In this document: piece after piece, positions 6,897-29,473 of the stretch
Layout of the letters: each line of letters starts with the position of its first letter
Numbering within the stretch: position 1 is the first letter of the stretch
DNA from: Deltaproteobacteria bacterium
GTDB lineage: Bacteria > Myxococcota_A > Polyangia > JAAYKL01
Length of the DNA: 64,000 bases
Reading direction: 5' to 3'
Assembly (NCBI GenBank): GCA_016935665.1
Contig: JAFGQN010000172.1
Span: forward strand, 1-64,000
Program-made: the position numbers and the translations under genes
Notes under the pieces: model-generated
What the model was told of the DNA's origin: nothing
The model's database searches: none
What the model saw: the letters and a program-made list of their open reading frames with translations, nothing else

Positions 6897-8570
6897 ATGA
6901 AGCAACCTCCCAATAGAGCAACCATCCGATTTTTAAAAGCCTACCTGACTGCCCTGTGGATTCTCATTTCATACGGCTGGTTTTTCTTTAAAGTGCGTCT
7001 TTTTGGCGCCGACTATCGATTGGAGCATATTGGCAAGGTGCATCAGCGGGCGGCTGTGCGCATCGAGAAAACGATTTTGGAATTGCAGGGATTGTTTATA
7101 AAGGTGGGGCAATTGTTCAGTATCATGACCAATTTTTTGCCGTCCACTTTTCGAAAGGGTCTCGAAAATCTGCAGGACGCTGTTCCCGCAAGGCCGTACG
7201 ACCAGATCCATCGACAAGTCGAATTGGAACTGGGGAGCCCACCGGAATCGCTGTTTGCGTCGTTCAGCACGACACCTATCGCTTCGGCCTCTTTGGGGCA
7301 GGTGCATGAGGCCATGACCATTGAAGGCGAGCGAGTCGCAGTTAAAGTGCGTCACCTGAACGTTGAGAATGTGGCCAAAGCGGATTTGAGAACCATCTGG
7401 CGCATTTTACAGCTGGTGAAGCGCTTTGTACGTGTGCGCGGGCTGGACAATTATTATTACGAAATCAAGGCCATGGTGCTGGACGAGTTGGATTTCAACA
7501 AGGAAATGGGGTACCTGGAGGCTATTGCTGACAATTTTAAAGATAACGATACAGTTGTGTTTCCATCTGTTTATAAGGAGCTGTCGGGAACACGCGTGTT
7601 AACCCTCAGTTATTTGAGCGGCCATAAAATTTCAGATGTGGAAAAACTTAACGCTGCCGGTTTGGATCTGCATCAGATTTCCACAAATCTGCTTACGGCG
7701 TATTGTCAGATGATTTTTGTGGACGGCATGTATCACGCGGACCCGCATCCCGGGAATGTGCTGGTACAGGAGAACGGCCAGATTGTTCTATTGGATTTTG
7801 GAGCGGTGGGCTTTTTAAGTTCGGAAATGCGCTCCGGGCTGAGCGCGTTGATGGAATCCATTATCAAGGCGGATGAGGAGCAGTTGCTGCGATCACTGAA
7901 GACTATGGGATTTTTACGCATTGGTACCCATCAGGCGGATGCGGCCGCAAAGGTAATTGAGCATTTTCATCGAAAATTTCAGGAAGAAATCAAGGTGACG
8001 GATTTCTCATTTTCCTCCATTCACGTGGATACCGGCAAGGGGCTTGAGCATTTGGCCGATCTCAAAGAGATGAATGTTGGTATTCGGGAACTCACCAGTG
8101 CGTTTCACATGCCCAGAGAATGGGTGCTTTTGGAGCGGACGGCGTTGCAGCTTACGGGTATCTGCAGTCAGCTGGATCCTTCGCTTTCGCCCACATCCAT
8201 CATACGCCCCTATTTGGAAGAGTTTGTGCTGGGCAAGGATACCGATTGGTCGCAGATGCTGTTTGACGTGACCCGGGAAAAAGTGCTGTCGTTTTTGTCC
8301 CTGCCAAAATTGATTGACAAATTCATCCACCAACTCCTGATGGGCAAGTTGTCCGTTAAGGTGGAAAATCTAAAACAACCCGGGATGTTGATTTATCTGG
8401 GACTGCAGCAGCTTTCCTTTGCACTGCTGGCGGCAACCGGTTTTGGGGCAAGTTTGTATTTTGATTATCGCGGCATGACACAGCGCGCCGATTACAGTCT
8501 TTGGACAACAGGTGTATTTTTATTTTTTATGCTGGTGTCCATGTTTCGGTCCCGTCGATTTAAAAAATAA
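6897..8570 (+). CDS. AarF/UbiB (ABC1) family atypical kinase-like protein
   Basis: The 557-residue protein carries the ABC1/ADCK/UbiB signatures: the KxGQ motif (FIKVGQLFS near residue 67), the Ala-rich loop in ASASLGQVHEA near 130 in place of a glycine-rich loop, the ATP-binding Lys in VAVKVRH near 148, HADPHPGNVLV near 280 and LLDFGAVG near 298. Two hydrophobic stretches at the C-terminus (around LSFALLAATGFGASLYF and LWTTGVFLFFMLVSMF) would anchor it in the inner membrane, as in UbiB. Family members assist ubiquinone biosynthesis or lipid transport, but no ubi gene is nearby, so a quinone role is only possible. It begins 39 bp after the PP2C stop. No strong Shine-Dalgarno was seen. Confidence 0.9.
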   Translation: MKQPPNRATIRFLKAYLTALWILISYGWFFFKVRLFGADYRLEHIGKVHQRAAVRIEKTILELQGLFIKVGQLFSIMTNFLPSTFRKGLENLQDAVPARPYDQIHRQVELELGSPPESLFASFSTTPIASASLGQVHEAMTIEGERVAVKVRHLNVENVAKADLRTIWRILQLVKRFVRVRGLDNYYYEIKAMVLDELDFNKEMGYLEAIADNFKDNDTVVFPSVYKELSGTRVLTLSYLSGHKISDVEKLNAAGLDLHQISTNLLTAYCQMIFVDGMYHADPHPGNVLVQENGQIVLLDFGAVGFLSSEMRSGLSALMESIIKADEEQLLRSLKTMGFLRIGTHQADAAAKVIEHFHRKFQEEIKVTDFSFSSIHVDTGKGLEHLADLKEMNVGIRELTSAFHMPREWVLLERTALQLTGICSQLDPSLSPTSIIRPYLEEFVLGKDTDWSQMLFDVTREKVLSFLSLPKLIDKFIHQLLMGKLSVKVENLKQPGMLIYLGLQQLSFALLAATGFGASLYFDYRGMTQRADYSLWTTGVFLFFMLVSMFRSRRFKK

Positions 8571-14800: not shown

Positions 14801-16598
14801 GGGCCTGGCTCTGGAACTGGGGCGCCAACTCAACGATAGAGATGAAGTGCAGAATCTGTATCGGCGGGCCCTGTCGGTTTCAGTGGATGATTCGGCGCTG
14901 TTAAAGGCGCTCATTGAAACATTGGATCCCCATGACGATGCACGGGAACGCCTGTCTTTGCTGGAACGAACCTTGCGTAACGAATCCGGTGACGACGCCG
15001 CATCCCTGACATTGCAGCTGGTATCTGCATATCGGGAGATGGACGACGGTGAAGGTGCGACGCGAACATTGAAATTCGGATTTGAAAGAGCGCCTGGAAA
15101 CAGCGATTTGAAAAAGGCGCTGGAACATGATTATCGATTGCGGGGCGATTTTGATGGTCTGGTCGAAATGCTGAAATCCACCGCTGCGGAAGTGGAGGAT
15201 GTGGATGCGAAATTGCGTGCATTCAGTGAAATCGCAGATTTGTATAAAGATGAAATCAACGATGTTACCGGGGAACTCGATGCATTGATTCAGATGGCGG
15301 AATTCGTTGATGGCGATTTGGCATTTACTATTCGCCTGATAGATGCATTCCGGCGTGCCGGCAAGTATGACGAGGCGTTGGAAAAAGCACAGTCTGCGTT
15401 GGATGCGGTTACGGAGCCCCAGAAAAGGTACGAGTTACTGCTGCTGCGCTCCAGAATGCTGAAGTCCAGGGGGGATGTGGATGGCGCGCTCGATGATTTG
15501 GAAATGGCTGTGTCCATAAACGAAGAAGCTGCGGAGTCGTTCGAGACATTGCTGCTTGAAAAACGTTCCGAGGCCGCTGCGGAACAGGACGTACTGGCAG
15601 AGAAAGACGCTGTGAACAAGTTGACGGGATTGTATCTGTACCAGGAACGCGTGGCGGAACTGACGTCACTGCTGCAGAGCTGGCTGGCGGGTCATGGAGA
15701 GGATGTGGATTCCTGGAGACAACTGTTGCAGTTGCATCAGCAGGCGGACAATCATGAAGGCGTGATAGACGCCTGCAAAAAACTGACAGTGCTTACCAGT
15801 GGTGAGGAACAGCTGGAAGTGGGCGCTGTGTTGACCCGGGCCTGTCTGGAGACGGGTGAACTGGAGATTGCCAGAAGGGGGCTGGAGTATATTTACAAAG
15901 AAAATATCGATGGGGTGCGGGTTCGGGATGAACTTAAAATGGTCTACGAAAAAATTGGTGCATTTCACGAACTGGCCACGTTGCTGGCCCATGATGCCAA
16001 ATCCGCTGAGGACGTTGTGGAACGCGCAGAACTGTTCAGGCGGGCGGGGCACGCGTATCTGAAGGCGGGCGATCCCTCCACTGCCTTGCTGGCGTTGAAT
16101 GAATCATTGTCGCTGGAGCCGGACAATATCGATTCCGCACTGCTGGTCATTGACATCGAGATTGAGCAGGGTGATTTGAATGCCGCAGAGGTACATGCAG
16201 ATGCGGCGCTGGAGGCATACGGTAACCGGCGCACGCCTCAGCAGGCGTTGTTGCTGTATAAAAAAGCCGTCATCAGTAAACAGCGGGGCGATCGGATGGA
16301 GCAGATGGAATGGCTGGAACAGGCCGCCACATCCAACCGAACCGATGGTGTGATTGCCGCGGAACTGGCGGAACTGGCCGAGGAACTGGAACAGTGGGAA
16401 ACCGCCCTCAAAGCTCTGCGCAATATTTCGCTCATGAAAACCAACTGCCCCATGTCCAAGGCGGAATCCTTTTTCAGACAGGGACGTATTTCCTATCGAA
16501 CCGGAGATGAAAAGCGCGCTGTCCTGTACCTGAAAAAAGCCCTGCAGGAAGACCGGGATCACGGCGAAGCCGAGGCGTTTTTACAGCAGATTTCGTAA
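8847..16598 (+). CDS. Giant tetratricopeptide-repeat protein (2583 residues)
   Basis: One uninterrupted frame of 2583 residues composed almost entirely of TPR-like helix pairs, for example DKAIAAHRKVVELKNNPQSL, DEARVLLEEILEAFGR, DPSTALLALNESLSLEPDNI and KRAVLYLKKALQEDRDHGEA. There is no signal peptide and no transmembrane segment, so it should be cytoplasmic. The composition is rich in Glu, Leu and Ala, and no catalytic domain interrupts the solenoid. Very long TPR proteins of this kind occur in Myxococcota and relatives and are presumed scaffolds; the partner is unknown. The ATG follows AGAAGGACACT. A 276-bp gap separates it from the aarF-like gene. The end overlaps 18 bp with the convergent gene at 16581-17006. 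The TPR call is firm; the role is unknown. Confidence 0.88.
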   Translation: MTKDTNRENLDKSFESAKKALSRAWDSEDAWDHLEEFAETPGFDSQVAGVYAEALESGLPESVFELVAQRAVNFHDEWFGDAPQQLQKLLSRIIELEPNASWAFNRLTEHLSSMALWDDLFSVYDRALDNVASTKRKKELLEEAANIARDMADEPDRALNYLLALHRLDKSNKGRLQLIERMLEKRERWSELIDLWQQQLEVMTPDEALETRLNIADCHVEKLREHDKALKIIEAFLQEHAGHRRACALGEAILADDSVDPALRMRALDTVLSNYQTADQPESVVRVVEIALTFAQTEQKIFLYRKAGATLSILGKDEQAMASYGELLVLAPADGDANKQLRLLAVRSKRFDLRAEALIRAAVCDDEVLKVAHLTDAAELYVRHLNNAARAIEIYSELLSLESAEPSTSLKVAHNLNELLAAEQRDSERLSVLEQIAILESTSMVRRTVYQEAAKLAEQLTMPERALEFWNAVLKENENDLEALTASIRLMHQTEQWEDVVAYLQKRAAAPVLKEQRRSDLVEVAVVQLNYLEDPSAAIKTWKEIFEEFGPRPDCVSQLDALMSQEGRFDELAELLVQASTKTVENVQGILSRLGDISKDQLELPEKALNYYRSVLALERKNPHAVAAVKELTEVPETRASAVHLLEEIYRSTEAFDELIMLTELRLSVATDVPEQVAIMMEAARTYEKELRDAENAFTMYCRALPESPDNSLALENLVRLAEVTEMWRPSLVALKTAAEKCIPGSSQHLGLLMHVAKIQEEELEDLQSALSTCVEIASVSVANLEIYERIIRLAAATESWSDGLNAFASIIRQTGKVQQDKLQLLEEAATSPVAFAKLAETLNTTIIENTEFTPLIQRELNLILSNWYMTQCDDAAKAKDTLKRAVDATPDFLPARRKLAEFQRKAPSKSFLENLKVIFRLCNDDLDPLMEAATVAVGILEEYEEARIYVVNLYDEASKLWRMGTTVKGRYSAEECVLHAVTQIAQLDLENGLKERAALFLLEGAKMPFDEIRSRFLRKKAASIFAEINMNPMAIDVYNQVLTRNPDDMETLLEMDALLEKENRILELLGVRQKRLELTSDPDLQLTLRLEISSLGGMLEGSESRLALLKENLTQTPGEARTIEAIHQLLEKHGRFRELVELFNEQANFLLTKGESSQAAFLFETVASVAQNKLGDVDKAIAAHRKVVELKNNPQSLDALAKLYTQKGDLAEAVDWLKRRLQVAEPEERVSTMIRLARTQLKIGQVEEAVEVLENAFDAAPQNAEVRKLLLERYRELKLYQKLADALERSIGNLHDNKTVLTYAREAAYIIFEQLNSPRNAVSVLQKIVTLQPDAKEEQTMLAEALLDAERYDEARVLLEEILEAFGRRRSPGRAAIHAKLAHVINAQGDTDDAILHLEQAVRMDSQNIQIARELAEMAGQKGDLDLAERTYRSLLMTVRRGQSGAAKSPIGPAEILLELSFIAKLRGQEDKDAELQESTIEALRQDDSQASALEKRLLEAEEYPFLVKILESRLGYLKKNVIRARVLGKLADILEYHLEQRDKAFEIRLKAVTSDPGAPQNHDSAIRLAKELDLYDEYVEVVENQMSTTRRDVDALTRCELLLRIMDARIEDEELEDATELFEQAKKLDVREVDVIRAGARLAEARGDDELQVQLLTELSKMGESGDSSETHVNALFRLAEIHLGSEETFDEGIEQLDAAFTESGNCERAGRILKRLVRKGVQSDALLHVFERVSKKSDDKYLMLEYFEMLSNLASTTPAQIQDGARLALELDEKDRAEKLMERIIDASEEFPEFGEAITWAMLGLGHKRLEQKDLAGAVKWFHDAAEIVEDDEVFEFGAAVARCIFEESDDLILGSRVYEKLLEMKPGDKVVWEPLSDIYLKLGNIEGFECLVEETMYSLESTQERNALRQKWARMLLDNDGREADAVDVLKNILLDEPGHSEALALLSDYYKRSGREEELIDLLKDRFSSAADRQAADEVKGLALELGRQLNDRDEVQNLYRRALSVSVDDSALLKALIETLDPHDDARERLSLLERTLRNESGDDAASLTLQLVSAYREMDDGEGATRTLKFGFERAPGNSDLKKALEHDYRLRGDFDGLVEMLKSTAAEVEDVDAKLRAFSEIADLYKDEINDVTGELDALIQMAEFVDGDLAFTIRLIDAFRRAGKYDEALEKAQSALDAVTEPQKRYELLLLRSRMLKSRGDVDGALDDLEMAVSINEEAAESFETLLLEKRSEAAAEQDVLAEKDAVNKLTGLYLYQERVAELTSLLQSWLAGHGEDVDSWRQLLQLHQQADNHEGVIDACKKLTVLTSGEEQLEVGAVLTRACLETGELEIARRGLEYIYKENIDGVRVRDELKMVYEKIGAFHELATLLAHDAKSAEDVVERAELFRRAGHAYLKAGDPSTALLALNESLSLEPDNIDSALLVIDIEIEQGDLNAAEVHADAALEAYGNRRTPQQALLLYKKAVISKQRGDRMEQMEWLEQAATSNRTDGVIAAELAELAEELEQWETALKALRNISLMKTNCPMSKAESFFRQGRISYRTGDEKRAVLYLKKALQEDRDHGEAEAFLQQIS

Positions 16599-17921: not shown

Positions 17922-18824
17922 TTACGCGTCATCGCTTGTCCCTTCGAGTCCCAAAAGGTATGGAATTGCAAAGATAACCGAGGAGAGAATGCGAGTTCGC
18001 CCGTTGTCGCACCAAACAATATTACTGTCAGAATATAGCGCATCACCTTCGCGGCAATAGCCATCTGCATCCTGGCACACGTCAACAGCGCTTAACTGAT
18101 TATTGTCGGTGTACTTGATTCCTTCACACAGAAAATTTCCCGTACACTCATCGCCCACTACGGACGAGGTGGCGTCCCCGCAATTTGTGTGCGCGACGTC
18201 AATGGATGGCATCGGTTTCAGCAGTGAGTCATCGCAGAGAAGGTATCGGACCAGATATGGCGATACAGAAGAACCATTGACATTTACTGTGAGGTTATCG
18301 CCACACGAGACCCGTTCAATACACCCCCCTTCGAGAGGTGTGTAACATGAGAAAACGCCTTCGCATTTCTCTCCGGAGCGACCGTCTGCAAGAGCTGAAC
18401 AGTCTGTCCATACCACATCTGGCCGTGGCTCGGCTTCTTCCTGAGCGATTACGTTGGTTGCACTGATGCTGCCACGCATGCACTCCACGAATCGGGATGA
18501 CGGAACACCCGCAGCCTCCGGCGGTTGCGCAACACCACAGCCAAATCGGTCGTAGCAGCTGTCTGCTTCGGGATCGTTGGTGTCGCAGGTATTGTCGCAA
18601 ATGTCTCCGCTTTTGATGGCTGCAAACGATGCATCGTTGTCGCAGGCGTCGGCCTTAACGAATTCCGGCAACCGGTCATTGTTGGTATGGAGAGTGCCAT
18701 CGTATTTGAGATTGGTACCGGATTCACCGGTCAACACTGTTGCCGTTGAGCCGTCTTTAAAATCGTAGCATCCCAAAAGCAGAACCGCTAAAGTGAGTAA
18801 ATAGATTGTTTTCATACTGGTCAT
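17922..18824 (-). CDS. Cys-rich predicted lipoprotein, 300 residues
   Basis: Starting at ATG 18824 (MTSMKTIYLLTLAVLLLGC), with AAAGGAG six bases upstream, the product has a lipoprotein signal ending in the lipobox LLLGC, so it should be lipidated and sorted to the outer membrane or periplasm. The mature part is rich in Cys, Asp and Gly, with paired-Cys stretches such as SGDICDNTCDTNDP, CFGVAQ-like loops and VGDECTGNFLCEG, consistent with several disulphides. An upstream in-frame ATG at 18851 is less likely because it lacks a ribosome site. No enzymatic domain is recognised. It is divergent from the ECF sigma gene at 19010, and the shared 185-bp intergenic region holds an inverted repeat, so it may belong to that regulon (inference). 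Confidence 0.75.
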   Translation of the reverse strand: MTSMKTIYLLTLAVLLLGCYDFKDGSTATVLTGESGTNLKYDGTLHTNNDRLPEFVKADACDNDASFAAIKSGDICDNTCDTNDPEADSCYDRFGCGVAQPPEAAGVPSSRFVECMRGSISATNVIAQEEAEPRPDVVWTDCSALADGRSGEKCEGVFSCYTPLEGGCIERVSCGDNLTVNVNGSSVSPYLVRYLLCDDSLLKPMPSIDVAHTNCGDATSSVVGDECTGNFLCEGIKYTDNNQLSAVDVCQDADGYCREGDALYSDSNIVWCDNGRTRILSSVIFAIPYLLGLEGTSDDA

Positions 18825-18893
18825 CGTTTTCTCCTTTGCAACCGAATGCAACTATTTATGCATTGATGCGGTCTGAGGACCGGGAGCTGGGAT

Positions 18894-18980
18894 AAACGGC
18901 TCATGGAGCAAAAAAAAATAGTTAAAAAAATTCCCACAAAAAAAAGTACATTTTGATACTGAAGAAAAAATGAGCCGTTT
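18894..18980. repeat. Pair of 11-bp inverted repeats in a divergent intergenic region
   Basis: AAACGGCTCAT at 18894-18904 is exactly the reverse complement of ATGAGCCGTTT at 18970-18980, separated by 65 A/T-rich bases. The pair lies between the divergent lipoprotein and ECF sigma genes, so it could be a two-site operator for both. A small hairpin (CGGTC, TGAG loop, GACCG) lies just to the left, near 18870. Confidence 0.4.
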
Positions 18981-19009
18981 GGGCTGTCTCAGGGTCCGGT
19001 AACATCCGG

Positions 19010-19606
19010 ATGAAAAAACCAATTGTACCAATAACTTCGTTGAGTAATACAGACAGTGTGGATGATGCCACGCTGGTGTTGCGCATGAAAGAAGGCGATG
19101 TTTGGGCCATGGAGGCATTTTACCATCGGTTTGTTCACAAAATTACCGGGATTTCCGCCAGACTGCTGAGAAACAGCTCCGATATTGAAGATGTTGTCCA
19201 GGATACATTCACAGAGGCCTATAGAGATATGCCTCAAATTAAATCACCGCAACTGGTGGAGCGATGGCTGGTACGAATAGCGGTTCATCGTGCCCATCGC
19301 CGGTTTCGTCGACGAAAACTGAAAAGAACCCTGGGGCTGGACCGTTCCATTGACGATGAGCGCCTGTTCATTCAAGTGGGGGTGCACGCATCCCATGAAG
19401 CACGGGCTGAAATTGCCCTGTTGGATTCCGTATTTGATACCATGAACATATCTGAACGCACCTGTTTTGTGCTGCGATACATTGAAGGATATCGACTGGA
19501 GGAAGTGGCGCAGATAACAGGTTACTCGCTGGCGACGGTCAAACGCCGAATTGTGAACGCCAAAGGTGCGGTGGACCGACATTTTGAGGAGGAATCCCAT
19601 GGTTGA
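19010..19606 (+). CDS. ECF-type RNA polymerase sigma factor
   Basis: A 198-residue extracytoplasmic-function sigma factor. Region 2 is recognisable in GDVWAMEAFYHRFV, then DIEDVVQDTFTEAYRDM. Region 4 follows a spacer: LLDSVFDTMNISERTCFVLR, YIEGYRLEEVAQITGYSLAT and VKRRIVNAKGAV, a canonical helix-turn-helix. It has no extra domain. The stop codon overlaps the start of the FecR gene by 8 bp (GAGGAGG ribosome site inside the sigma gene), so the pair is translationally coupled, the usual arrangement for a sigma factor and its membrane regulator. It probably drives the downstream surface-protein genes. The Shine-Dalgarno of this gene itself is weak (GTCCGG). Confidence 0.93.
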   Translation: MKKPIVPITSLSNTDSVDDATLVLRMKEGDVWAMEAFYHRFVHKITGISARLLRNSSDIEDVVQDTFTEAYRDMPQIKSPQLVERWLVRIAVHRAHRRFRRRKLKRTLGLDRSIDDERLFIQVGVHASHEARAEIALLDSVFDTMNISERTCFVLRYIEGYRLEEVAQITGYSLATVKRRIVNAKGAVDRHFEEESHG

Positions 19607-20807
19607 TATGGATCGTATCAGGAACGCATTTGCGGACAAACAGTCTCCTTTGCGGGTTCATCGCATGTGGCAGTCAATCGAGGCAGCGTGTATTGACACC
19701 AGTCCCGCGCCATCTCGATGGTGTGTAACAGTCCTTGCCACAGGTGCGGTTGTGGCGGCCGCGTTGATGCTGGCACTGATATGGCCAAAGGCAGATGTGG
19801 GACCGTTGATGCTGCAGGCGGGTGCGCCGATAAAAAATACAATAGTCACTGCCCAGCCCATGCGAACACGCTTTTCCGATGGATCATTTCTCGACACAGC
19901 CAAAGGCACATCGTTAAAACTGGTGGAGAATACCAGTCATTCCGTGGCGTTTTCAATGTTGCAGGGGGAGGCGTATTTTAATATTCAACCCGGTGGTCCC
20001 CGCGTGTGGCGGGTCAATTGCATGGGGATTTTTGTTACCGTTGTGGGCACAGCGTTTGTGTGCAGGGGACAAAGCGAACAGGTGACTCTGGAAGTGAAAC
20101 GAGGCGCCGTTCTGGTTGACGGCAAAGGTGTTGAAAAAGGCCCCCGGAAACTGGTCGCCGGGAATGCGATTACCGTAGGGCCAAAGCATGTATTCACAAA
20201 AAAGGATAAGGATAATAACAATGATAACGATGTGAATAATGTGGATAATATGAACAATGCGAACGAAAATGGCGACAATGCAGGACGCAGTAACCTTACT
20301 GCGTCCCGAGCGCCCCACGCGTCCGCCGCGCAACCTGTCTGGAAAATTCAGGCAGAAGCCGGAAACTATATAGAAGCGTTCGATCGTTTGGGCGCCGACA
20401 AAGTGGCGTCATTGACGGCGCAGTCCAACGATGTGGACGAATTGTTTCAACTGTCGGATGTGGCGCGACGAAATGGTCATCCCCGTGATGCGATTGGACC
20501 TCTTGAGACGATTATTCGTCGATTCCCTCAAAACGCCCGCGCTGCACTGGCCTCCTACACGCTGGGACGCCTGTATCTGGAGCATCTCAAGGCGCCGGTG
20601 AAAGCGACAGAGGCATTTAAAAAAGCTTTGTCGCTGGGACTACCGGCCGCATTGACCGAGACCGCGGAAGCAAAACAGATTAGGGCGATGCTGCAGTACA
20701 ACACAACAGAAGGGAAAAAGCTGGCATCGGAGTATCTGATGCGGTATCCAGACGGTCGTTATCGACAGAAGGTGGAAGCCTGGCTGCAGGCGACCGTGTC
20801 TCAATAG
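19599..20807 (+). CDS. FecR-domain membrane protein with TPR C-terminus, putative anti-sigma regulator
   Basis: The 402-residue product starts at ATG 19599, with GAGGAGG seven bases upstream. Residues 1-40 are cytoplasmic, a transmembrane helix lies at about 41-62 (WCVTVLATGAVVAAALMLAL), and the periplasmic part begins with a FecR domain: RFSDGSFLDTAKGTSLKLVE, VVGTAFVCRG and VTLEVKRGAVLVDGKG. A low-complexity Asn/Asp run (KDNNNDNDVNNVDNMNNANE) links to a C-terminal TPR-like domain (HPRDAIGPLETIIRRFPQNA). FecR proteins relay a surface signal to an ECF sigma factor. The 8-bp overlap with the ECF gene argues that this is its regulator. The short N-terminus lacks a clear zinc anti-sigma motif, so the inhibition mode is not shown. 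Confidence 0.85.
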   Translation: MVDMDRIRNAFADKQSPLRVHRMWQSIEAACIDTSPAPSRWCVTVLATGAVVAAALMLALIWPKADVGPLMLQAGAPIKNTIVTAQPMRTRFSDGSFLDTAKGTSLKLVENTSHSVAFSMLQGEAYFNIQPGGPRVWRVNCMGIFVTVVGTAFVCRGQSEQVTLEVKRGAVLVDGKGVEKGPRKLVAGNAITVGPKHVFTKKDKDNNNDNDVNNVDNMNNANENGDNAGRSNLTASRAPHASAAQPVWKIQAEAGNYIEAFDRLGADKVASLTAQSNDVDELFQLSDVARRNGHPRDAIGPLETIIRRFPQNARAALASYTLGRLYLEHLKAPVKATEAFKKALSLGLPAALTETAEAKQIRAMLQYNTTEGKKLASEYLMRYPDGRYRQKVEAWLQATVSQ

Positions 20808-20823
20808 GAGAGCATCAGAGTTT

Positions 20824-21789
20824 ATGTTTTTTTTAACTGTGCTGGCATCGTTTATGATTCAGTTGTCCGAAGTCACAGTGATTTCCTGTGACGCACGGTG
20901 GATTGACCCGAAACGACTTTGCGATGTGCTTGAAACAGAACTCAATGAGTTTGATGCCGATACGAGAGCAGGCGCAATATTCATTATTGATGAATGCACA
21001 CCGCAGGCGGTGCGGCTGCGCGTTGTGGGGCGCCAAAAACAGCTTCAACGAAGTGTACCGTTAGACGACATTCAAACGGAAGCGCGCATCCGAACAATTG
21101 CGTTGACGTTTGGTGAACTGGCACAGGACGCGCTGATTATTTTACCAGCGGATGGGGCGGATGCACCCATTCAAATCAGACCGGAACCGCAGGCCAAAGA
21201 TGGCTCGTCAAACAAACTCCCCAACGAATGTCCAAAGGTGGCGTCATGCGACGCGTCAACAGCATCGACAGCGGCTGAGATGGGTGCGTTGGCATCCTGG
21301 AAAGATTCCTTGCGATATGTGGTCACTGCTGGACTCCGTGTATTTCCTGTGGCCAAATCACTGGCCCCCGAAGCACGATTTGGAATACGCCAGGGGCGAT
21401 GGCGGTACGACGTTCGCGCATATGCCATGCGCTGGAAAGAATTGCAAATAGGAACCACCTGGCTCGCTGCCGCGTGTCTCACCGGTGGACCCATACTTTT
21501 TCAATACGAAGGCAATGTACAGTTTGAGATTGATGCTTTGCTGGAGCTGGGCGGCATTGCCGCACTGGGCGAGCCTGCCAACGCAGATGTGAAATATACA
21601 CCGAAATTCAACTTTCTGATTGGCGCCCATCTGGCCATGTGGTTGACCATCCCCGGTGAAAGACGGTTTAAACCGCTGCTTACGTTGGAAGGAGGACTGG
21701 TACGAGGCCTCAACGTTTATGCGGGAGACGAATTTCAAGGCGGCTTTGAAGGTCCGTCCACATCCATTGGAATTGGTGGCATCTGGTAA
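20824..21789 (+). CDS. Predicted surface or outer-membrane beta-rich protein, 321 residues
   Basis: The family is not recognised. The N-terminus (MFFLTVLASFMIQLSEVTVI) resembles a signal sequence, so it is probably exported. Residues up to about 115 form a soluble mixed alpha/beta-looking region; then a Ser/Ala/Asp-rich linker; the last 160 residues are alternating hydrophobic strands ending in Trp, such as YVVTAGLRVFPVAK, WRYDVRAYAMRWKE and IGIGGIW at the terminus, which fits an outer-membrane beta-barrel. It lies 16 bp after the FecR gene, with AGGAGAG upstream of the ATG, so it is in the same operon and is a candidate sensor or target of the sigma/FecR pair. Confidence 0.65.
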   Translation: MFFLTVLASFMIQLSEVTVISCDARWIDPKRLCDVLETELNEFDADTRAGAIFIIDECTPQAVRLRVVGRQKQLQRSVPLDDIQTEARIRTIALTFGELAQDALIILPADGADAPIQIRPEPQAKDGSSNKLPNECPKVASCDASTASTAAEMGALASWKDSLRYVVTAGLRVFPVAKSLAPEARFGIRQGRWRYDVRAYAMRWKELQIGTTWLAAACLTGGPILFQYEGNVQFEIDALLELGGIAALGEPANADVKYTPKFNFLIGAHLAMWLTIPGERRFKPLLTLEGGLVRGLNVYAGDEFQGGFEGPSTSIGIGGIW

Positions 21790-22043
21790 ACGCGTTTCAG
21801 TAACAGGGGCGTCAAAACACCCTTCTTCCCGCAACACTTTCACCAATTCGATAATGTCATCCATTCTGTGGCGGTGTATATATGCCCAATGCCGATGTAT
21901 GTGTTCTGATGTTTTTTAAGGCCCAACATCCCATTGAAATTCGCCTCGTTCTGATATGCGATGGAATTGTGCAATTTATCGGGCTTCCCCCTGAAATTTT
22001 TCTGGAATGTGTCGTTACTCATATTTGCGTTATATTGAAATAG

Positions 22044-23657
22044 ATGGTTCAACATATGTATTTAGTCGATTTTAGAGCTTCAGCGCGCAATTCCTCCAGA
22101 TATCAATCCTGCGAGTTGGTCGGTTTTTTAAGGCACAGTGGTCTATCGACTGTGCTTTTTGGAATTTGTACGTGTGTGTTATTGGCCCTATTATCCCTGC
22201 CGGCGACTGCGGTTGAACAGGAATTGGGTCGTTCGGGGCTGGCTGGTGGTGACCAGGTGGGGATTCTGGAGACCGATGGAATGAAGTTGTCTTTTGTGGG
22301 GCACGCGGGGTATGGATTTTTAGACAGTACTGGACCGGTGGCGGGAGCGCATCATGGACTTTACGGGAATATGGCTGCTGGACTGCATCTCATGCCCCAG
22401 TTTAGCGCGGCGCTTGGGGTAAAAGGGGTGTTGCAGTTTCATCCGGAAGATGAATTTGGGAAGGACAAAAGCATCCTGGGCGAGCCATGGCTGCTATTGC
22501 GCAGCGGGATTCCCCTTCGTCCGAATCTGCTATTGGGCGGCGAAATCGGGCTTATGATTCCCGGTACGCGAGCGCCGTCGCTGGAATGGTCAGCGCTGAT
22601 TCTGGACATGGCGGCCCTTTTGACGGTGCGTCTGTCCAGTGCCATGACTCTGGCGGCCAAAGGGGGATTTCGTCTTGACCAAAGTGAGAAGGCGGCGCCG
22701 GACCTGGCCCACACGCGATATGGCGACCGCATTTCATTTCCCCTGTCTTCGTATCACGCGGTGCTCGCGGGTGTGCTGTGGATGTATCAGTGGACGAATG
22801 TTTCGGTCTGGACTGAGCTTTCCGCGGATTTTCTGGTGGGAAACGATGGAAAATTCGCCACATCTCCCATGCGCTTCGGTGCGGGGGGGCGTTACCACGT
22901 GACCCGGAAGATCACTTTGCATTTGAATGCGTCCACGTCGCTGAGTCGACGACCGATTCTGGAGAACGAAGATTTTGTGATCCCCATTGAACCGCGATTT
23001 CTGGTGCTCGTGGGCGCCGGCGTTACCCTGGATTTCAGCAGGGGAACATCGTCATTGCCGCGGTCGCAAGAAGAGATTGAGCCAGTAGTGACACCGCAAC
23101 TCCCTATAGAGCCAAAGGACGAAACGCTCATTGCCGCTCCCAGGGAGGAGTTGGAAACAGGCAGTATTGCGTCGGTGGTACTCGACAGTGATGGGCTGCC
23201 TGTGGCGGGGGCAAATGTCACTGTTTCGGCGGGAGAATCGTTCACGGCCACGGTGAAGACAAACAGAGAGGGGCGCTTTGAAATCGACAACGTTCCAAGT
23301 GGGGTGGCGACGATGACCATTCAGATGCCGTTTTTTGAAACCCGAGAGCAAACCGTTGAGGTGGCTGGCGGGCAAACATGGGCAGAGGAAATGCCGCCAC
23401 TGCAGGAAAGTGAGGTGGGCAGCCAGATTCGTGGATTGGTGCGCAATTTTGAAGGGTCGCCCATTGACGCGACGATTACTGTGAATCCCGGTGGGGCGCA
23501 GATTGAAGCCGATGATACTGGGGAATTCCTCCTCGATGTGGAGCCGGGTAAGTATGTGGTGGTAATTGAAGCGCATGGCTACAAAACGCAACGACGACGT
23601 GTTAAGGTGGGGAAAAACAGTGTGGAGATACTGAATGTGGAACTGCGAAAGAAATAG
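22044..23657 (+). CDS. Exported barrel-like protein with two C-terminal carboxypeptidase-regulatory (Ig-like) domains
   Basis: A 537-residue exported protein. A hydrophobic stretch at about 35-55 (LSTVLFGICTCVLLALLSLP, then ATA) looks like a signal sequence, so the true start may be later than ATG 22044; no ribosome site supports the 22044 codon. Residues about 60-345 contain alternating strands and Gly-rich turns typical of outer-membrane barrels (ALGVKGVLQFHPEDEF, LHLNASTSLSRR). Two carboxypeptidase-regulatory-like domains follow: one near 372-443 (VLDSDGLPVAGANVTVSAG, NREGRFEIDNVPSG) and one near 460-535 (IRGLVRNFEGSPIDATITVN, YVVVIEAHGYKTQRRRVKVG). Such domains are beta-sandwich modules found in secreted and TonB-linked surface proteins. 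It is followed by the second FecR gene with a 23-bp overlap. Confidence 0.75.
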   Translation: MVQHMYLVDFRASARNSSRYQSCELVGFLRHSGLSTVLFGICTCVLLALLSLPATAVEQELGRSGLAGGDQVGILETDGMKLSFVGHAGYGFLDSTGPVAGAHHGLYGNMAAGLHLMPQFSAALGVKGVLQFHPEDEFGKDKSILGEPWLLLRSGIPLRPNLLLGGEIGLMIPGTRAPSLEWSALILDMAALLTVRLSSAMTLAAKGGFRLDQSEKAAPDLAHTRYGDRISFPLSSYHAVLAGVLWMYQWTNVSVWTELSADFLVGNDGKFATSPMRFGAGGRYHVTRKITLHLNASTSLSRRPILENEDFVIPIEPRFLVLVGAGVTLDFSRGTSSLPRSQEEIEPVVTPQLPIEPKDETLIAAPREELETGSIASVVLDSDGLPVAGANVTVSAGESFTATVKTNREGRFEIDNVPSGVATMTIQMPFFETREQTVEVAGGQTWAEEMPPLQESEVGSQIRGLVRNFEGSPIDATITVNPGGAQIEADDTGEFLLDVEPGKYVVVIEAHGYKTQRRRVKVGKNSVEILNVELRKK

Positions 23658-25272
23658 CGTTGGCTGGAGCTGGTGGTTTGTGGGCGTTCCATTTGCGGGA
23701 TGGCTTTTGATGTGGCTGGTGGGCTGCGTGTGGGTGTGCGTGGGCTGTGAAGGTTGTGAGCAATCCCCTCTGGCTCGGTTGGCCAGCCACAAAGGGATTG
23801 CAGAGCGCGATTTTGCCAATGCCCGGCAGGTATGGAAACCGGCGAAGGACGGAGAACGTTTTTCTGTGAATGACGGCGTGCGCACTGGTGCGTCTTCGAC
23901 GGCGGAACTGTGGCTTAGGGACGGTTCGGGGTTGCGCATGCAGCAAAACGCGGTGATTCGATTTGCCCGGTCATTGCCCAATCGCAATCAAATCGGACTG
24001 AAGATTGAGGAGGGTGTGATATTTATTGACGCCGCCTCGGATGATTTCGAAATTAATACAAAATACGGCGTGGCCATCCTGAAAAAGGGAACGCGGATTA
24101 AGCTGACAAAAAGCGATGAGGGTATTTTACTTCACGTGCAGATTGGCAGCGCGCGGTTTTTGTCGGAAGAGGACGAACAGTCGCTGAAGGAAGGACAACA
24201 GCTCAATATCAAAATGGGCACGGCAGTATTGATTTCCGACGCGCCGTTAATCGACGCTTCGGAGTCGGTGGATGCGGTCGAGGATGCGGGGGACACGGGC
24301 TCTGAGACAGCCGCTGCCAGAAGGGAATTGCCAGCAATGGATTCTGCGTCTGATTCGGCGTCTGCAGATGTGCCCAACGGTGAAAAAGCGAAAGACGGCA
24401 AAGGGGAGGAAACGCCGGATTTTCTGGCGCTGGTGCGGGAAACAACGCAGTTGCCGGCGGATATGTTTATTGCTGCTGGGGAATCGGCCTGGATTCACAG
24501 CCCGGCGATGCCCGTCCACGTGGCCATTCGCGTCTTTGGGGTTTGTGAGTTGGGGGCGTTTGTGACAATGCGGGGAAAACAACAGAGAGTTGGTGGAACA
24601 GCTCAGGTGGTGATTCCCCTTAATATGGGACGCAATCGGTATGCGGTGCATTGTGTGCTTTCGGACGGTACGTTGAATCGGGAAGCGGTTACCAAAGGGA
24701 TGCTGTTTGTTGTGAGGGATACCGGCAAAGTGACGCTGGCACAGACGCCACCCCTGTCCACGGTGCTCATGGATGGTCGCACATACACTGTGAACTACCA
24801 GACGCGACTGCCGACCATACGCGTGAAGTGGCCCACCGCACCGGACAGCAATAGTTTTACGCTGTATGTGTCCGGAGACAGTGCTCAACAGTATTCTCTT
24901 GACAAGCCCCAGTATCTGTTGGCCGCAGGAACGTTGCTCGAGGGCACGCATACGTTTAAATTTGTTGATGATAAGAGTGGTGTTCGTTCACGCAACACAA
25001 CGCTGAAAATTCATTTTGACAATGTGTCTGACAAGGCGGCGCTCATCGAACCTGGAGACCGTGCATTTGCACCGGGAACGTTGGTTCGGGTGCGCGGCAC
25101 TGCCATGTTGGACTGGGAAGTCAGTTCACCCCTTGGAAAAATTGCCATGGACAGCAGCAGCCGATTTGAAGGGTCGTTGCAGCACAACACTATGTACCGG
25201 GCGATATGGCTCAAGTTGTCCCACGCTCAAAGAGGGGTACACTACTATCTGCGGCGTCAGGCAACACCGTAA
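23635..25272 (+). CDS. FecR-domain membrane protein, 545 residues
   Basis: It starts inside the end of the previous gene (23-bp overlap), so translation is likely coupled. The N-terminus has a very hydrophobic Trp/Val/Cys-rich segment at about 10-40 (GWSWWFVGVPFAGWLLMWLV) that would be a membrane anchor or signal; a cluster of Cys follows it (CVWVCVGCEGCEQ). A FecR-type domain covers about 55-190: RTGASSTAELWLRDGSGLRM, IGLKIEEGVIFIDAASDDF, YGVAILKKGTRIKL and VQIGSARFLSEEDE. The rest is beta-rich with an Ala/Ser/Asp-rich linker near 205-250. No TPR or catalytic domain was seen. It is the second FecR-type protein of the locus; its partner is unclear, since the nearest sigma factor genes are 19010 (same operon direction) and 28985 (opposite strand). 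Confidence 0.75.
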   Translation: MWNCERNSVGWSWWFVGVPFAGWLLMWLVGCVWVCVGCEGCEQSPLARLASHKGIAERDFANARQVWKPAKDGERFSVNDGVRTGASSTAELWLRDGSGLRMQQNAVIRFARSLPNRNQIGLKIEEGVIFIDAASDDFEINTKYGVAILKKGTRIKLTKSDEGILLHVQIGSARFLSEEDEQSLKEGQQLNIKMGTAVLISDAPLIDASESVDAVEDAGDTGSETAAARRELPAMDSASDSASADVPNGEKAKDGKGEETPDFLALVRETTQLPADMFIAAGESAWIHSPAMPVHVAIRVFGVCELGAFVTMRGKQQRVGGTAQVVIPLNMGRNRYAVHCVLSDGTLNREAVTKGMLFVVRDTGKVTLAQTPPLSTVLMDGRTYTVNYQTRLPTIRVKWPTAPDSNSFTLYVSGDSAQQYSLDKPQYLLAAGTLLEGTHTFKFVDDKSGVRSRNTTLKIHFDNVSDKAALIEPGDRAFAPGTLVRVRGTAMLDWEVSSPLGKIAMDSSSRFEGSLQHNTMYRAIWLKLSHAQRGVHYYLRRQATP

Positions 25273-25292
25273 AATGCATTCAGGAGTTTTGG

Positions 25293-27185
25293 ATGAATGG
25301 TGGCAGCAGAAAACACAGCGACTTCTCGATAGATCTGATCGGCAAGCAGGTACTTGGGCGCTACCACATTGTTCGTAAAATTGCCGCGGGCGGAATGGGG
25401 GTTGTGTATCTGGCGCGCTACACGGGGGCTCACGACTTTGCAAAGCCGGTGGTGGTAAAAATTATTTTGCCAGGGTACGCCAAAGAGGAACAGTTTTTAA
25501 AAATGTTCATTCGAGAGGCGAAAATACTGGCCTCGCTGCATCATCCAGGGATTGTGGAAGTGATAGATTTCGGGGAGCAGGATGATTTCTACGTGATGGT
25601 GCTGGAGTATGTGCATGGTTTTGAGTTGCGGGAATGGGCGGTGTACCGGGAACATATTGGCAAGGTTTTTTCAATTGATGTGATTTTGCAAATCGTCATC
25701 GAGGTGCTGGAGGCGCTCGATCACGCCCATACCCTGGTAACCGCGGATGGCGTCGCGAGACCGGTGATTCATCGGGATATCTCCCCGTCGAATGTGATGC
25801 TCACTTCCCAGGGGAGGCTCAAACTGGTGGATTTTGGCATTGCGCGCATGAACAACATGACCGGCGGATATCGCACCGAGACGGGATCATTTCGAGGGAA
25901 GCTGTCTTACTCGTCTCCCGAGCGGTTTGGCAAGGTGGAGTTGACACCGGAATGCGATATTTACTCTGTGGGGGTGATGCTGCACGAATTGCTTACCGGG
26001 GAAAACGAGTTTTATACCGGCGACCATGCCAGCACCATTGCGCGGGTGCTGAATCACACGGTCAGTTCCGTGCTGCATAAACGCCCCGACGCCCCGTCTC
26101 GCCTGGATCAGGTGATTGCGAAAGCACTGGCCAAAAATCCTGCGGATCGTTATGGCAGCGCCATGGATTTTGCGAATGATTTAAGGCAGATGCTTGTACA
26201 GAGCGAGTCAGCGGTCAAGGAGAAAATTGCCTCGTTGATTCGGGAGGATTTCAATGACGATATGGCAGCCTACCTGGGCTGTGAATCACTCAATGCCCTG
26301 GAGAGCGCCTGGCGCAATCCGTCCACATCTCCCATTGCGGACTGGTCGTCGGACGCGTTGGACAGCACCGTCAATTTAAAACGCCAGTTGGAAGGAAAAG
26401 TAGAGCGGGCGCCCGTGATTACCGATGTTTACCGCAACCGCTACAAATCCAGTCTTCCCGCAGAACGGGACCCGTCTTTGGTGATTGCGTTGCAGCAGGG
26501 GATGGCCGAAGACACAGAAGTGCTGAACGGTCACCGGACACAAAAGACGGAAGTGATTTTTAGAACACGCCCCGCTGTGGTAATCGGAGTGCTGATTTTT
26601 CTGATCGCCGCAGTGGCCCTGGCGGTGGTGTACGGGTTTGTGTTTCACGACCAGCCGGAAAAGCCGGATAGGTTTTACCTGGTGCAGGGAAACGACGCGG
26701 CGCCCCTGAAACAGCCAAACGATGACAAATCCGCGTTTTCTGACGAAGAGCGTCCAGCCGCGGATGATCGGGTGATGACGGATTCATCGGAAAAACCGAT
26801 TGGCGGTATCAACAACAGCACCGGTGCCGCTGAAAATCGGACAAAGAATAAGACCGCTGTGGGGTACAGCACAAAAGATGAGGCGCCGCTGACTGAAGAA
26901 GAACAGCTGATGATGCTATCATCTGTGTTTCAGAAAGAACAGCGCTCGGTTGAGGCGTGTCTGGCGAACAATGAAACCGTGCTGGCTGGGATTGAGCGCA
27001 TTTTTGTTCGATTTGCTGTGGAAAAAGACGGCACGGTCTCACAGTCGTCGATAGTGCCCGCGCGGTTGAAGGGGACCCCTCTGGCGCGGTGTATTCAGAA
27101 TGTGGCCCAAAAGACCCGCTTCCCCAGAATGAGCAAACCCCTGTCCTTTGCCATTCCCATTGCCGTGACCCGTGCGGGGGATTGA
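25293..27185 (+). CDS. Hanks-type Ser/Thr protein kinase with transmembrane segment and AgmX/PglI-like C-terminal domain
   Basis: ATG 25293 is chosen because CAGGAG lies six bases upstream; an in-frame start exists further 5'. The 630-residue product has an N-terminal kinase domain (about 20-310): KIAAGGMGVVYLAR (Gly loop), PVVVKIILPG (Lys), EAKILASLHHPGI, VIHRDISPSNVML (catalytic loop), KLVDFGIAR, YSSPERF and DIYSVGVMLHELL. A transmembrane helix lies near 428-450. The periplasmic C-terminus ends in a conserved-looking tail (about 550-625: RIFVRFAVEKDGTVSQSSIV, CIQNVAQKTRFPRM) resembling the AgmX/PglI tail found in myxobacterial surface and signalling proteins. It would link a periplasmic module to cytoplasmic phosphorylation. 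The gene follows the FecR gene by 20 bp. Confidence 0.92.
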   Translation: MNGGSRKHSDFSIDLIGKQVLGRYHIVRKIAAGGMGVVYLARYTGAHDFAKPVVVKIILPGYAKEEQFLKMFIREAKILASLHHPGIVEVIDFGEQDDFYVMVLEYVHGFELREWAVYREHIGKVFSIDVILQIVIEVLEALDHAHTLVTADGVARPVIHRDISPSNVMLTSQGRLKLVDFGIARMNNMTGGYRTETGSFRGKLSYSSPERFGKVELTPECDIYSVGVMLHELLTGENEFYTGDHASTIARVLNHTVSSVLHKRPDAPSRLDQVIAKALAKNPADRYGSAMDFANDLRQMLVQSESAVKEKIASLIREDFNDDMAAYLGCESLNALESAWRNPSTSPIADWSSDALDSTVNLKRQLEGKVERAPVITDVYRNRYKSSLPAERDPSLVIALQQGMAEDTEVLNGHRTQKTEVIFRTRPAVVIGVLIFLIAAVALAVVYGFVFHDQPEKPDRFYLVQGNDAAPLKQPNDDKSAFSDEERPAADDRVMTDSSEKPIGGINNSTGAAENRTKNKTAVGYSTKDEAPLTEEEQLMMLSSVFQKEQRSVEACLANNETVLAGIERIFVRFAVEKDGTVSQSSIVPARLKGTPLARCIQNVAQKTRFPRMSKPLSFAIPIAVTRAGD

Positions 27186-27521
27186 GCGACCCGTTTGAGC
27201 GCATGGGTTTGGATGCATCGCTTTAAAGTGGTATCAACAAAAAAATCGGGGATGACTTTTGGGTGTTAACCATTATTCGCCGGAACAATATCCCTGGTAC
27301 TTTTGTCCCGTCCTGAGGTCAATATGGTCTCAACGGCCGGGTTGAAGTGGGTCGGTCGTGGTCAGTGAGGTCTGTCCGTACCCTCATACGCATCTGCCAC
27401 CTTGCGATCATACAGGCGTTTTTAAGGCCAGTATTTCCGGGCGCGTCCAACGGGATCGTATCATGGCGCGTTCTTTGCATTATCCGGCAGCCGGTGGCCT
27501 GCTGTGCCTGAAGGAGCTTGA
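27186..27521 (+). other. Intergenic region between the two kinase genes, 336 bp
   Basis: No gene, tRNA or strong terminator was recognised here. Only short overlapping frames without ribosome sites occur. Base composition is mixed, with a T-rich stretch near 27290-27310. The region could carry the promoter of the second kinase, but no convincing -35/-10 pair was found. Confidence 0.4.
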
Positions 27522-28931
27522 ATGTCCAGCAACTCGTTATCTCACAAAACAATGTTTCGATTTCACCCCGATTACCAGATTATTGGAAAACTGAGAACCG
27601 GCGGGATGGGTCGCGTTTATCTGGCCATTGCGAAGGGGCCCTTGAATATTCGGCAAAAGGTGGTGTTGAAGCTCCCGCTCAATTTGAGCGAAGGCATACG
27701 CTGGCGCAAGGATTTTGAAAATGAGGCTCGGGTGATGGCCCAGCTGAATCATCCCAATATCGTACGCTCCCTTGAGTGGATTGAAATGGATGGTTCCCCA
27801 TGTATGGTATTCGAATACATTGAAGGTTTCGAAGTGGCAGATATTCTCAGGCACTTCAGAGCGCAGAATAAACGTATGCCGCTGAGTATGACGTCTCAAA
27901 TCATGCTGCAGGTGTGTGAAGCAGTGCAGTACATGCACAGCGCCAGAACCATTGACGACCAGCCTTTGGCGATTGTTCACCGGGACCTTGACCCTTCAAA
28001 TATCATGCTGACAGATGATGGCTACGTAAAGATTATCGATTTTGGGATTGCCAAGAATGCCATGCAGGAAGTGATGACCAAACCAGGGGTGTACAAGGGG
28101 AAACTCATCAATTTACCCCCGGATGTGTTTTTGTTTGAAAAAGTCGACCACCGCGCGGACATCTTTTCGCTGGGTCTCCTGTTGTTCGAAATGCTGACGG
28201 GACAGCGCGCCCGGAAATTTGAGGTGACCGACAGTCTGACCCGTATTGTTGAGCTGTTGAGAAAAAGGCCTATTCCGTTGCCCTCTGAGGTGTGCCCGCA
28301 GATACCGGATGTGTTTGACCACATTGTGGCCAAAGCCACGGCTTCGAACAGAGACGCCCGCTATCAGAGCGCTGCCGAGATGTTCAACGATTTGCGGCAG
28401 GTATCCAAATCACTGTCCGTTGGACCAAATCATCTGATTGTAAAAAGATGGATTCACGAAGATTTGAAGTCGCTTCGAACCCGGCGAGCTGAAAAAATGC
28501 GCCTGCTTTTGGATGGAAGGGATGCACTGACCGAGTTGTCGCCGTCCGGCAGTACTGTATTTAAGCGAAATCGCGTTCGTTCGAGTTTTATTTCAGGTAT
28601 GAAAAACAGAATTACTGCATTGAAACTACAGATTCACGGTCAGTTGATTCTGCTGCAGCGATGGTCAGTGATTCGCAGTCTGTCGCTGGTGTTCATTCTG
28701 GCGATTTCCATGACCATTCAGGACAGTTCCGTTTGTGACACACCTCTGTCAATCTCAGCCCATCCGGATGTTCAGACTGTTACGGCAAACAGCACCATTT
28801 TTGTTGACGCAGACAATAGCATCGCAACACCAGGGCTACCATTGTTGCAAACTGTCATGTTGCCGGCCGTGCGATTAAACGAAGCAGAGCAGAATTCTTT
28901 GTGGGTATCTCGAAAAACCCCAATGCAGTGA
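27522..28931 (+). CDS. Hanks-type Ser/Thr protein kinase, membrane-anchored
   Basis: The 469-residue product begins at ATG 27522, with GAAGGAG seven bases upstream. A short N-terminal stretch (residues 1-20, containing KTMF) precedes the kinase domain (about 20-300): KLRTGGMGRVYLAI (Gly loop), KVVLKLPLNL (Lys), IVHRDLDPSNIML (catalytic loop) and VKIIDFGIAK. The activation segment ends in INLPPDVFLFE rather than a clear APE, which differs from the first kinase. A single hydrophobic segment lies near 381-401 (IRSLSLVFILAISMTI), and about 65 residues follow outside. The catalytic Lys, HRD and DFG are all present, so it should be active. It lies 336 bp after the first kinase and probably has its own promoter. 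Confidence 0.9.
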   Translation: MSSNSLSHKTMFRFHPDYQIIGKLRTGGMGRVYLAIAKGPLNIRQKVVLKLPLNLSEGIRWRKDFENEARVMAQLNHPNIVRSLEWIEMDGSPCMVFEYIEGFEVADILRHFRAQNKRMPLSMTSQIMLQVCEAVQYMHSARTIDDQPLAIVHRDLDPSNIMLTDDGYVKIIDFGIAKNAMQEVMTKPGVYKGKLINLPPDVFLFEKVDHRADIFSLGLLLFEMLTGQRARKFEVTDSLTRIVELLRKRPIPLPSEVCPQIPDVFDHIVAKATASNRDARYQSAAEMFNDLRQVSKSLSVGPNHLIVKRWIHEDLKSLRTRRAEKMRLLLDGRDALTELSPSGSTVFKRNRVRSSFISGMKNRITALKLQIHGQLILLQRWSVIRSLSLVFILAISMTIQDSSVCDTPLSISAHPDVQTVTANSTIFVDADNSIATPGLPLLQTVMLPAVRLNEAEQNSLWVSRKTPMQ

Positions 28932-28984
28932 CAACGAATACCAAAGCAGCACGATAGATGGGGTGTCGATTATCCAGGTTCGAT

Positions 28985-29473
28985 TTACGCTGTTTCAGTA
29001 TGGCTTAACTGTTTCAAACTGCGTTCCACTCGTTTGCGCATACCAGACACAGACATGTTCATCTGTCGCGCCAGTTCTCTTAAGGAAAAGCCGCTCTGGA
29101 ATCGGAGCAACATGATTTCGCTTTCCAGAGGACCCTGTAGCGTTTTAATGCGATCGAAAATCGTCTCCGGAGTATCCGCACTCCAGTTCATCTGTGTCAG
29201 CGAGTTGTTTTCCTGCGTCAGGTTCTGCATGCATCGATGGTATGCCTTTTTGGATCGAATTCGATTGATGCAGGTATTGGTGGCGGCGCGGTAAAACAGA
29301 CCGCCGTTGAGTTCATCCCTGGGGGATTGCCCGTAGCGCAGGAGGATTTTCACGAATGTGTCCTGCATGGCGTCCAGCGCTTCTTCTTCGCAGTTTAAAA
29401 TGGTGCGACAACGACGCAACACCATGGGTCCGTAAAGTGTGTAATACTCTTCAATATTTTTCTGCAGTCCCAT
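28985..29473 (-). CDS. ECF-type RNA polymerase sigma factor
   Basis: A 162-residue ECF sigma factor starting at ATG 29473 (MGLQKNIEEYYTLYGPMVLR) with GCGGAGG upstream. Region 2 includes NCEEEALDAMQDTFVKILLR; region 4 includes LESEIMLLRFQSGFSLRELA, then RQMNMSVSGMRKRVERSLKQ. It lies on the strand opposite to the kinase genes and is convergent with the second kinase, closing the signalling locus. No anti-sigma or FecR gene directly flanks it on its own strand, so it may be an orphan or be regulated by the FecR proteins to the left. Target promoters are unknown. Confidence 0.88.
   Translation of the reverse strand: MGLQKNIEEYYTLYGPMVLRRCRTILNCEEEALDAMQDTFVKILLRYGQSPRDELNGGLFYRAATNTCINRIRSKKAYHRCMQNLTQENNSLTQMNWSADTPETIFDRIKTLQGPLESEIMLLRFQSGFSLRELARQMNMSVSGMRKRVERSLKQLSHTETA

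Follow-up and report, generated by a model that had tools for sequence, protein, structure and literature searches.

A conserved barrel-FecR-kinase cassette beside an ECF/FecR operon: two predicted signalling systems at one Myxococcota locus

The window, a 64,000-nucleotide stretch of contig JAFGQN010000172.1 from an assembly (G000) of 8.16 Mb in 249 contigs, contains a block of eight genes, labelled SIG1, FECR1, BAR1, BAR2, FECR2, KIN1, KIN2 and SIG2, that spans 10.5 kb with seven of the eight on the same strand (Table 1). All eight genes named in the initial annotation were recovered at the same positions from open reading frames and Pfam and NCBIfam domains, and six of them are predicted to form two neighbouring systems rather than one, a SIG1-FECR1-BAR1 operon and a BAR2-FECR2-KIN1 cassette. 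The reported 23-bp overlap between BAR2 and FECR2 is real and was also found in genome G001, and the 8-bp overlap between SIG1 and FECR1 holds if FECR1 starts at the ATG at 19599. The initial annotation took these overlaps as support for co-expression of the plus-strand genes; a single transcript is not implied, since BAR1 and BAR2 are 254 bp apart and the gap from KIN1 to KIN2 is 336 bp. Pattern scans of the region for sigma-70 promoters and terminators gave matches no more frequent than in shuffled sequence. Elsewhere in the window, a 2583-aa TPR-rich protein is encoded on the plus strand at 8847-16598, 3' of a UbiB/ABC1-type atypical kinase gene at 6897-8570.

Table 1. Genes and promoter-like elements of the block and its upstream flank, with positions in the window.
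Feature	Position	Strand	Basis
Divergent lipoprotein gene	17922..18851	-	
Promoter-like element GGACC-N12-AAACGGCTCAT, upstream of SIG1	18877..18904	+	
Second, inverted GGACC-N12-AAACGGCTCAT copy, pointing at the divergent lipoprotein gene	18970..18997	-	
SIG1, ECF sigma factor	19010..19606	+	Pfam Sigma70_r2 E 3e-11, r4_2 1e-9
FECR1, membrane FecR-TPR protein	19599..20807	+	Pfam FecR 2e-9 and TPR; overlaps SIG1
BAR1, exported envelope protein	20824..21789	+	Position in SIG1 operon
BAR2, exported predicted barrel with two CarboxypepD_reg/PEGA-type beta-sandwich modules, 537 aa	22044..23657	+	Pfam, AlphaFold, Foldseek, alignment A2
FECR2, exported FecR-domain protein, 545 aa, C-terminus HYYLRR	23635..25272	+	Pfam FecR 5e-9; family alignment A1
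KIN1, Hanks kinase with one transmembrane helix and a periplasmic TonB/AgmX-like tail	25293..27185	+	Pfam Pkinase 3e-42, NCBIfam NF033768
KIN2, second Hanks kinase with transmembrane helix	27522..28931	+	Pfam Pkinase 4e-37
SIG2, ECF sigma factor convergent with KIN2	28985..29473	-	Pfam Sigma70_r2 3e-8

Across G000 there are 33 FecR matches, 65 Pkinase matches (approximately 64 kinases) and 63 Sigma70_r2 matches, numbers so high that finding a kinase close to an ECF-FecR pair is in itself unsurprising. Coordinates and annotated neighbourhoods placed an ECF gene just 5' of the FecR gene, often overlapping it, in 28 of the 33 cases; the FecR genes with no preceding ECF gene were both FECR2 copies (in the window and on contig C201) and those on contigs C36, C62 and C243. 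SIG1 and FECR1 have the arrangement that defines an ECF-FecR operon, an ECF gene directly upstream of a gene for a membrane FecR protein. The topology of FECR1 comprises a cytoplasmic N-terminus of 42-53 aa, a transmembrane helix (residues 54-72, numbered from the GTG at 19566), the FecR domain and the TPR part, and FECR1 is the probable anti-sigma factor for SIG1. Both BAR proteins had originally been labelled as barrels, which a 12-strand model supports for BAR2; BAR1, at most a putative barrel, has no Pfam match and no recognisable domain. A paralogous operon on contig C3 of G000 carries ECF, FecR and BAR1-like genes in the same order, the BAR1 homologue matching at E 2e-21.

Two exact copies of the GGACC-N12-AAACGGCTCAT element lie face to face on opposite strands between SIG1 and the divergent lipoprotein gene, and a similar face-to-face pair occupies the same place at the C3 operon, where the divergent gene encodes a Fib_succ_major protein; the second copy of each pair aims at a divergent lipoprotein gene. 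A degenerate form of the element had four exact matches in G000 against approximately 0.24 expected, three of the four being at the SIG1 and C3 loci. The pair is likely to be an autoregulatory ECF promoter pair, and the divergent lipoprotein of the window a probable SIG1 target. This lipoprotein is a Cys-rich protein of 309 aa for which neither a Pfam match nor, at the fetched loci, a homologue was found. The element was searched for upstream of BAR2 and not found, which again speaks for a separation of SIG1 from the cassette, and SIG1-FECR1-BAR1 is predicted to be an ordinary, independent ECF/FecR relay.

Within the cassette, BAR2 matches CarboxypepD_reg twice (Pfam 3e-26), in agreement with the carboxypeptidase-regulatory modules already ascribed to it, and also PEGA (6e-8). 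Its AlphaFold model (pLDDT 78) arranges the strands of residues 81-330 as a 12-strand barrel followed by two C-terminal sandwiches, the cassette models being of moderate quality (pTM 0.48-0.52, 12-13 sequences), and Foldseek matches included OmpG, FapF and the COG4313 channel (TMt 0.5-0.65). On this model BAR2 is probably an outer-membrane barrel; with 12 strands and no plug, it differs from TonB-dependent receptors, which have 22 strands, a plug and a signalling domain.

Proteins of the FECR2 family begin with an export signal and most have a lipobox-like cysteine. The strict lipobox pattern was present in 19 of 34, further WGC, MGC and TGC variants were recognised by eye, and a lipobox was clearly missing from three (L108, L109 and L112), so that membrane placement may vary. 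The window protein is probably a lipoprotein, and as such is probably located in the outer membrane. The cytoplasmic anti-sigma N-terminus and transmembrane helix of FecIRA-type FecR proteins are not present in FECR2, which has the export signal instead; lacking a cytoplasmic part it cannot bind a sigma factor, and its predicted topology rules it out as an FecR-type anti-sigma. In the AlphaFold model (pLDDT 76), a FecR beta domain is joined to Ig-like beta domains by a disordered linker at residues 194-271. By structure comparison the FecR part resembles 4m0h, a putative anti-sigma structure (TMt 0.46), and a sequence search of the PDB with FECR2 returned nothing significant. From approximately residue 275 to 545, FECR2 and its homologues share a conserved Ig-like C-terminal region with the motifs DGR-Y-YQ, RFDN and HYYLRR (alignment A1), for which there is no covering Pfam model. 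A similar C-terminal region also occurs in a shorter, 377-aa protein encoded directly 3' of an ECF gene (L057, G045:C204).

The longest KIN1 open reading frame starts at 25206, from which residues are numbered here; the in-frame ATG at 25293, behind AGGAG and 20 bp past the FECR2 stop, is the likelier start. The protein is laid out as a kinase, a transmembrane helix at approximately 457-475 and a tail at 572-650. The catalytic Lys, Glu, Asp, Asn and Asp residues (K85, E104, D191, N196 and D209, including the HRD and DFG Asp) are invariant in all 13 family members, and the kinase domain is predicted to be intact. The AgmX-like character first proposed for the tail was upheld: the window copy scores 30 bits against the AgmX/PglI model NF033768, whose cut-off is 40 bits, yet 13 of 13 family members match it at E <= 1e-3, and the tail profile has weak similarity to the TonB C-terminal domain 5lw8 (E 7e-4). 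A strong tail was found in two of the approximately 64 G000 kinases, namely the two cassette kinases, the next best match being 90 bits lower.

When FECR2 was the query, 16 of 59 relatives yielded homologues, and among 379 genomes from the phylum a FECR2 profile gave strong matches in at least 22 (three candidates scored per genome), all from the same class; the closer subset of alignment A1 gave six named loci, all in MAGs labelled Deltaproteobacteria or Myxococcota. Profile annotation of the neighbourhoods of FECR2 matches yielded 34 strong loci, in which a cassette kinase was counted if its match to the KIN1 profile ran through the tail to the end. In 30 of the 34, such a tail kinase adjoins FECR2 in the same orientation, the exceptions being three loci at contig ends (L046, L107 and L113) and L053, where the kinase is 6.3 kb away; the tail lacking from L046 probably corresponds to one found where contig C300 of the same genome begins. 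BAR2 is adjacent to FECR2 in 28 of the 34, is found downstream in the opposite orientation in L049 and was not recognised in five (L103-L106, including Sandaracinus-like genomes, and L115), which suggests that the barrel may be replaceable. At the Sandaracinus-like loci L103 and L104, a gene whose product ends in an AhpC-TSA/thioredoxin domain replaces BAR2 upstream of FECR2, and a thioredoxin-domain gene precedes FECR2 in the Sandaracinus-like genome G224, which has FECR2-KIN1 and no recognisable BAR2; the thioredoxin domain at this place in L103 and L104, together with two tail cysteines (Cys585 and Cys629) that are invariant in 13 of 13 KIN1 family members, raises a redox question. A diverged version was also seen, with a BAR2-like gene (E about 1e-48) near a tail kinase on opposite strands (G022:C393, G030:C42 and G038:C222) and the FECR2-like gene on a different contig, where its neighbour encodes a PEGA or BAR2-like protein (L054-L056).

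Among the 17 loci outside model building (L099-L115), the tail kinase was adjacent in 15 and BAR2 in 12, both kinase misses being contig ends. The usual order is BAR2-FECR2-KIN1, often with 4-bp overlaps, and the kinase comes before BAR2 and FECR2 in L048, L050 and L114; the genes stay together although their order varies, indicating that the trio survives rearrangement. Strong FECR2 matches (E <= 1e-20) occurred in 13 of the 59 relatives, with BAR2 in 13 and the tail in 12 of these 13, and the copy numbers of BAR2, FECR2 and KIN1 tail were 2/2/2 in G000, 3/3/3 in G001 and 2/2/2 in G002. Within these three genomes the paralogue groups agree for all three proteins, one group uniting the window cassette, L038 and L039 and another the C201 cassette, L042 and L044. 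Correlations between pairwise distance matrices were 0.75-0.83 against a label-shuffle maximum of 0.26, a null that ignores the shared species tree; part of this correlation is common species history, and the fidelity of paralogue partners is the better evidence of co-inheritance. BAR2-FECR2-KIN1 is accordingly described here as a separate, conserved three-gene cassette.

ECF genes were present in only two of the 34 cassette loci, the window (two) and L112 (one), and these three compare with 3.4 expected from the G000 ECF density over 437 kb of flanks. The conserved synteny anticipated for the whole block was clear for barrel, FecR and kinase, but there was no conservation of an ECF-kinase association, and the neighbourhood comparison rejects both ECFs as part of the cassette unit. 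In G002 the KIN2 ortholog is 3.7 kb away from FECR2 and oppositely oriented, in G001 it is on a separate contig, and tail-less kinases in cassette flanks numbered eight against 3.4 expected, a weak excess; KIN2 was rejected as a cassette member on these grounds. The best relatives of SIG2 are 36-43% identical and, among those listed, none is on a cassette contig. Ortholog and relative positions gave no support for a KIN2-SIG2 pairing beyond adjacency, and both genes are predicted to be loose neighbours outside the conserved cassette. Phospho-activated ECF43 factors have lost the acidic sigma2.2 motif and are encoded beside a kinase gene, examples of kinase-activated ECFs being those of PknS-EcfK and PknT-EcfP (PMC13147305, PMC8999054). 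Membership of ECF43 was judged by loss of the acidic DxxD of sigma2.2, with Thr instead; SIG1 (DIEDVVQD, with DIED) and SIG2 (EALDAMQD, with EALD) both retain the acidic motif and were rejected as members, and the cassette kinases of relatives, save that of L112, have no linked ECF.

In classical systems, the FecR domain receives the signal from an outer-membrane receptor. A comparable relay can be proposed for the cassette, whose domains, topology signals, three-gene linkage and co-inheritance are read from sequence and whose contacts, signal direction, ligand and substrate are inferred. BAR2 would sit in the outer membrane with its two beta-sandwich modules facing the periplasm, KIN1 would sit in the inner membrane with its flexible linker and TonB-like tail spanning the periplasm, and FECR2 would couple the two through its FecR domain. 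A change at BAR2, in ligand or envelope state, would pass via FECR2 to the KIN1 tail, which would switch the cytoplasmic Hanks kinase, and the kinase would thereby occupy the output place held by the ECF sigma factor in FecA-FecR-FecI signalling. Such an outer-membrane-to-Hanks-kinase relay made of FecR/TonB parts is considered a reasonably probable function of BAR2-FECR2-KIN1. Surface signalling at the locus is supported, as is the FecR protein-Hanks kinase link first suggested, which is real for FECR2-KIN1. That the trio constitutes a new surface-signalling class within one Myxococcota class, in which a barrel and a FecR lipoprotein directly control a TonB-tailed Hanks kinase, is a possible but somewhat doubtful extension.

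The main rival to the relay is a regulated transport or envelope-assembly machine, in which the KIN1 tail would act on BAR2 from the inside out and FECR2 would be a structural adaptor. The TonB-like tail, a barrel that carries CarboxypepD_reg modules like SusC-type receptors and the GltG/GltJ-like architecture would suit such a machine; it is nonetheless unlikely, as the cytoplasmic module of KIN1 is an intact kinase, the modelled BAR2 barrel has 12 strands and no N-terminal plug, and no ExbB/ExbD-like gene was recognised among annotated cassette neighbours (from annotation only, unsystematically). The initial annotation's own proposal, that two ECFs bracket one combined circuit with both FecR proteins and both kinases, in which the kinases phosphorylate the sigma or FecR proteins, is improbable. 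ECFs occur near cassettes at the chance rate, with none at the C201 cassette of G000 or at the G001 and G002 cassettes, FECR2 has no anti-sigma segment, both sigma factors failed the ECF43 motif test and the SIG1 promoter-like motif does not recur upstream of BAR2. These observations outweigh the clustering of the genes within 10.5 kb, seven of eight on one strand, the ECF that L112 also has beside its cassette, and the existence of kinase-activated ECFs (PknS-EcfK and PknT-EcfP; PMC13147305, PMC8999054).

Two further possibilities would retain a link to sigma factors. The SIG1 operon, 254 bp upstream on the same strand, might have been recruited locally to drive cassette transcription in this species only, and the shortness of that gap and the finding that terminator-like patterns are no commoner than chance in the region are in its favour. 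However, the gap exceeds those inside either operon, BAR2 has no upstream repeat of the promoter-like motif and the cassette is present in relatives without SIG1, leaving only a slim chance that this is so. Less probable still is that FECR2 is a diverged anti-sigma of an unlinked ECF, adjusted by the kinase: despite its resemblance to the putative anti-sigma 4m0h, and although most G000 FecR domains accompany ECFs, FECR2 has a signal peptide/lipobox N-terminus with no cytoplasmic segment, and the genes conserved beside it are BAR2 and KIN1 rather than ECFs.

Hanks kinases are hugely expanded in myxobacteria and, to our knowledge, the route by which signals from beyond the outer membrane reach them is largely open. 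The barrel-FecR-kinase trio offers concrete partners and a testable path for such signals. Further, the locus shows that proximity to an ECF gene does not make every FecR domain an anti-sigma factor, a point of consequence for annotation, since such genomes encode many FecR proteins. The parts of the cassette are known, no description of the BAR2-FECR2-KIN1 trio was found in the open-access literature searched, and their combination appears to be new.

Among known systems, one close comparison is with FecA-FecR-FecI cell-surface signalling, as in iron-responsive ECF systems (e.g. PMC3597554). The cassette resembles it in that an outer-membrane protein and a FecR-domain protein would relay towards the cytoplasm, while SIG1-FECR1 fits its sigma/anti-sigma part; unlike it, the cassette FecR is exported, as a (lipo)protein, and has no anti-sigma domain, its partner is a Hanks kinase, and BAR2 has 12 strands rather than the 22 of a plugged TonB-dependent receptor. 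The ECF43-kinase systems (EcfP-PknT and EcfK-PknS) resemble the locus in having a transmembrane Hanks kinase whose sensor domain lies in the periplasm, and an ECF gene is present in the block as well. They differ in that the ECFs are unlinked to the cassette in relatives, SIG1 and SIG2 keep the acidic motif, the periplasmic part of KIN1 is TonB-like rather than the TPRs of PknS, and a FecR or barrel partner has not been reported for them. GltG of the myxobacterial gliding machinery has an FHA domain in the cytosol and a TonB-like part in the periplasm (PMC3169522), and KIN1 likewise joins a cytoplasmic signalling domain, a transmembrane helix and a TonB-type periplasmic part, with a kinase where GltG has FHA and a tail from the same family as GltJ (PglI/AgmX); no Glt or Agl motor genes were recognised among neighbouring proteins in a general Pfam scan. 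For the kinase domain itself, the closest curated model is that of PASTA-type kinases (PknB/Stk1; NF033483), which KIN1 matches at 246 bits against a 450-bit cut-off and from which it differs in having a TonB-like tail instead of PASTA repeats. Overall, these comparisons place the cassette as a variant of FecR/TonB surface signalling outside both the FecIRA and ECF43 systems.
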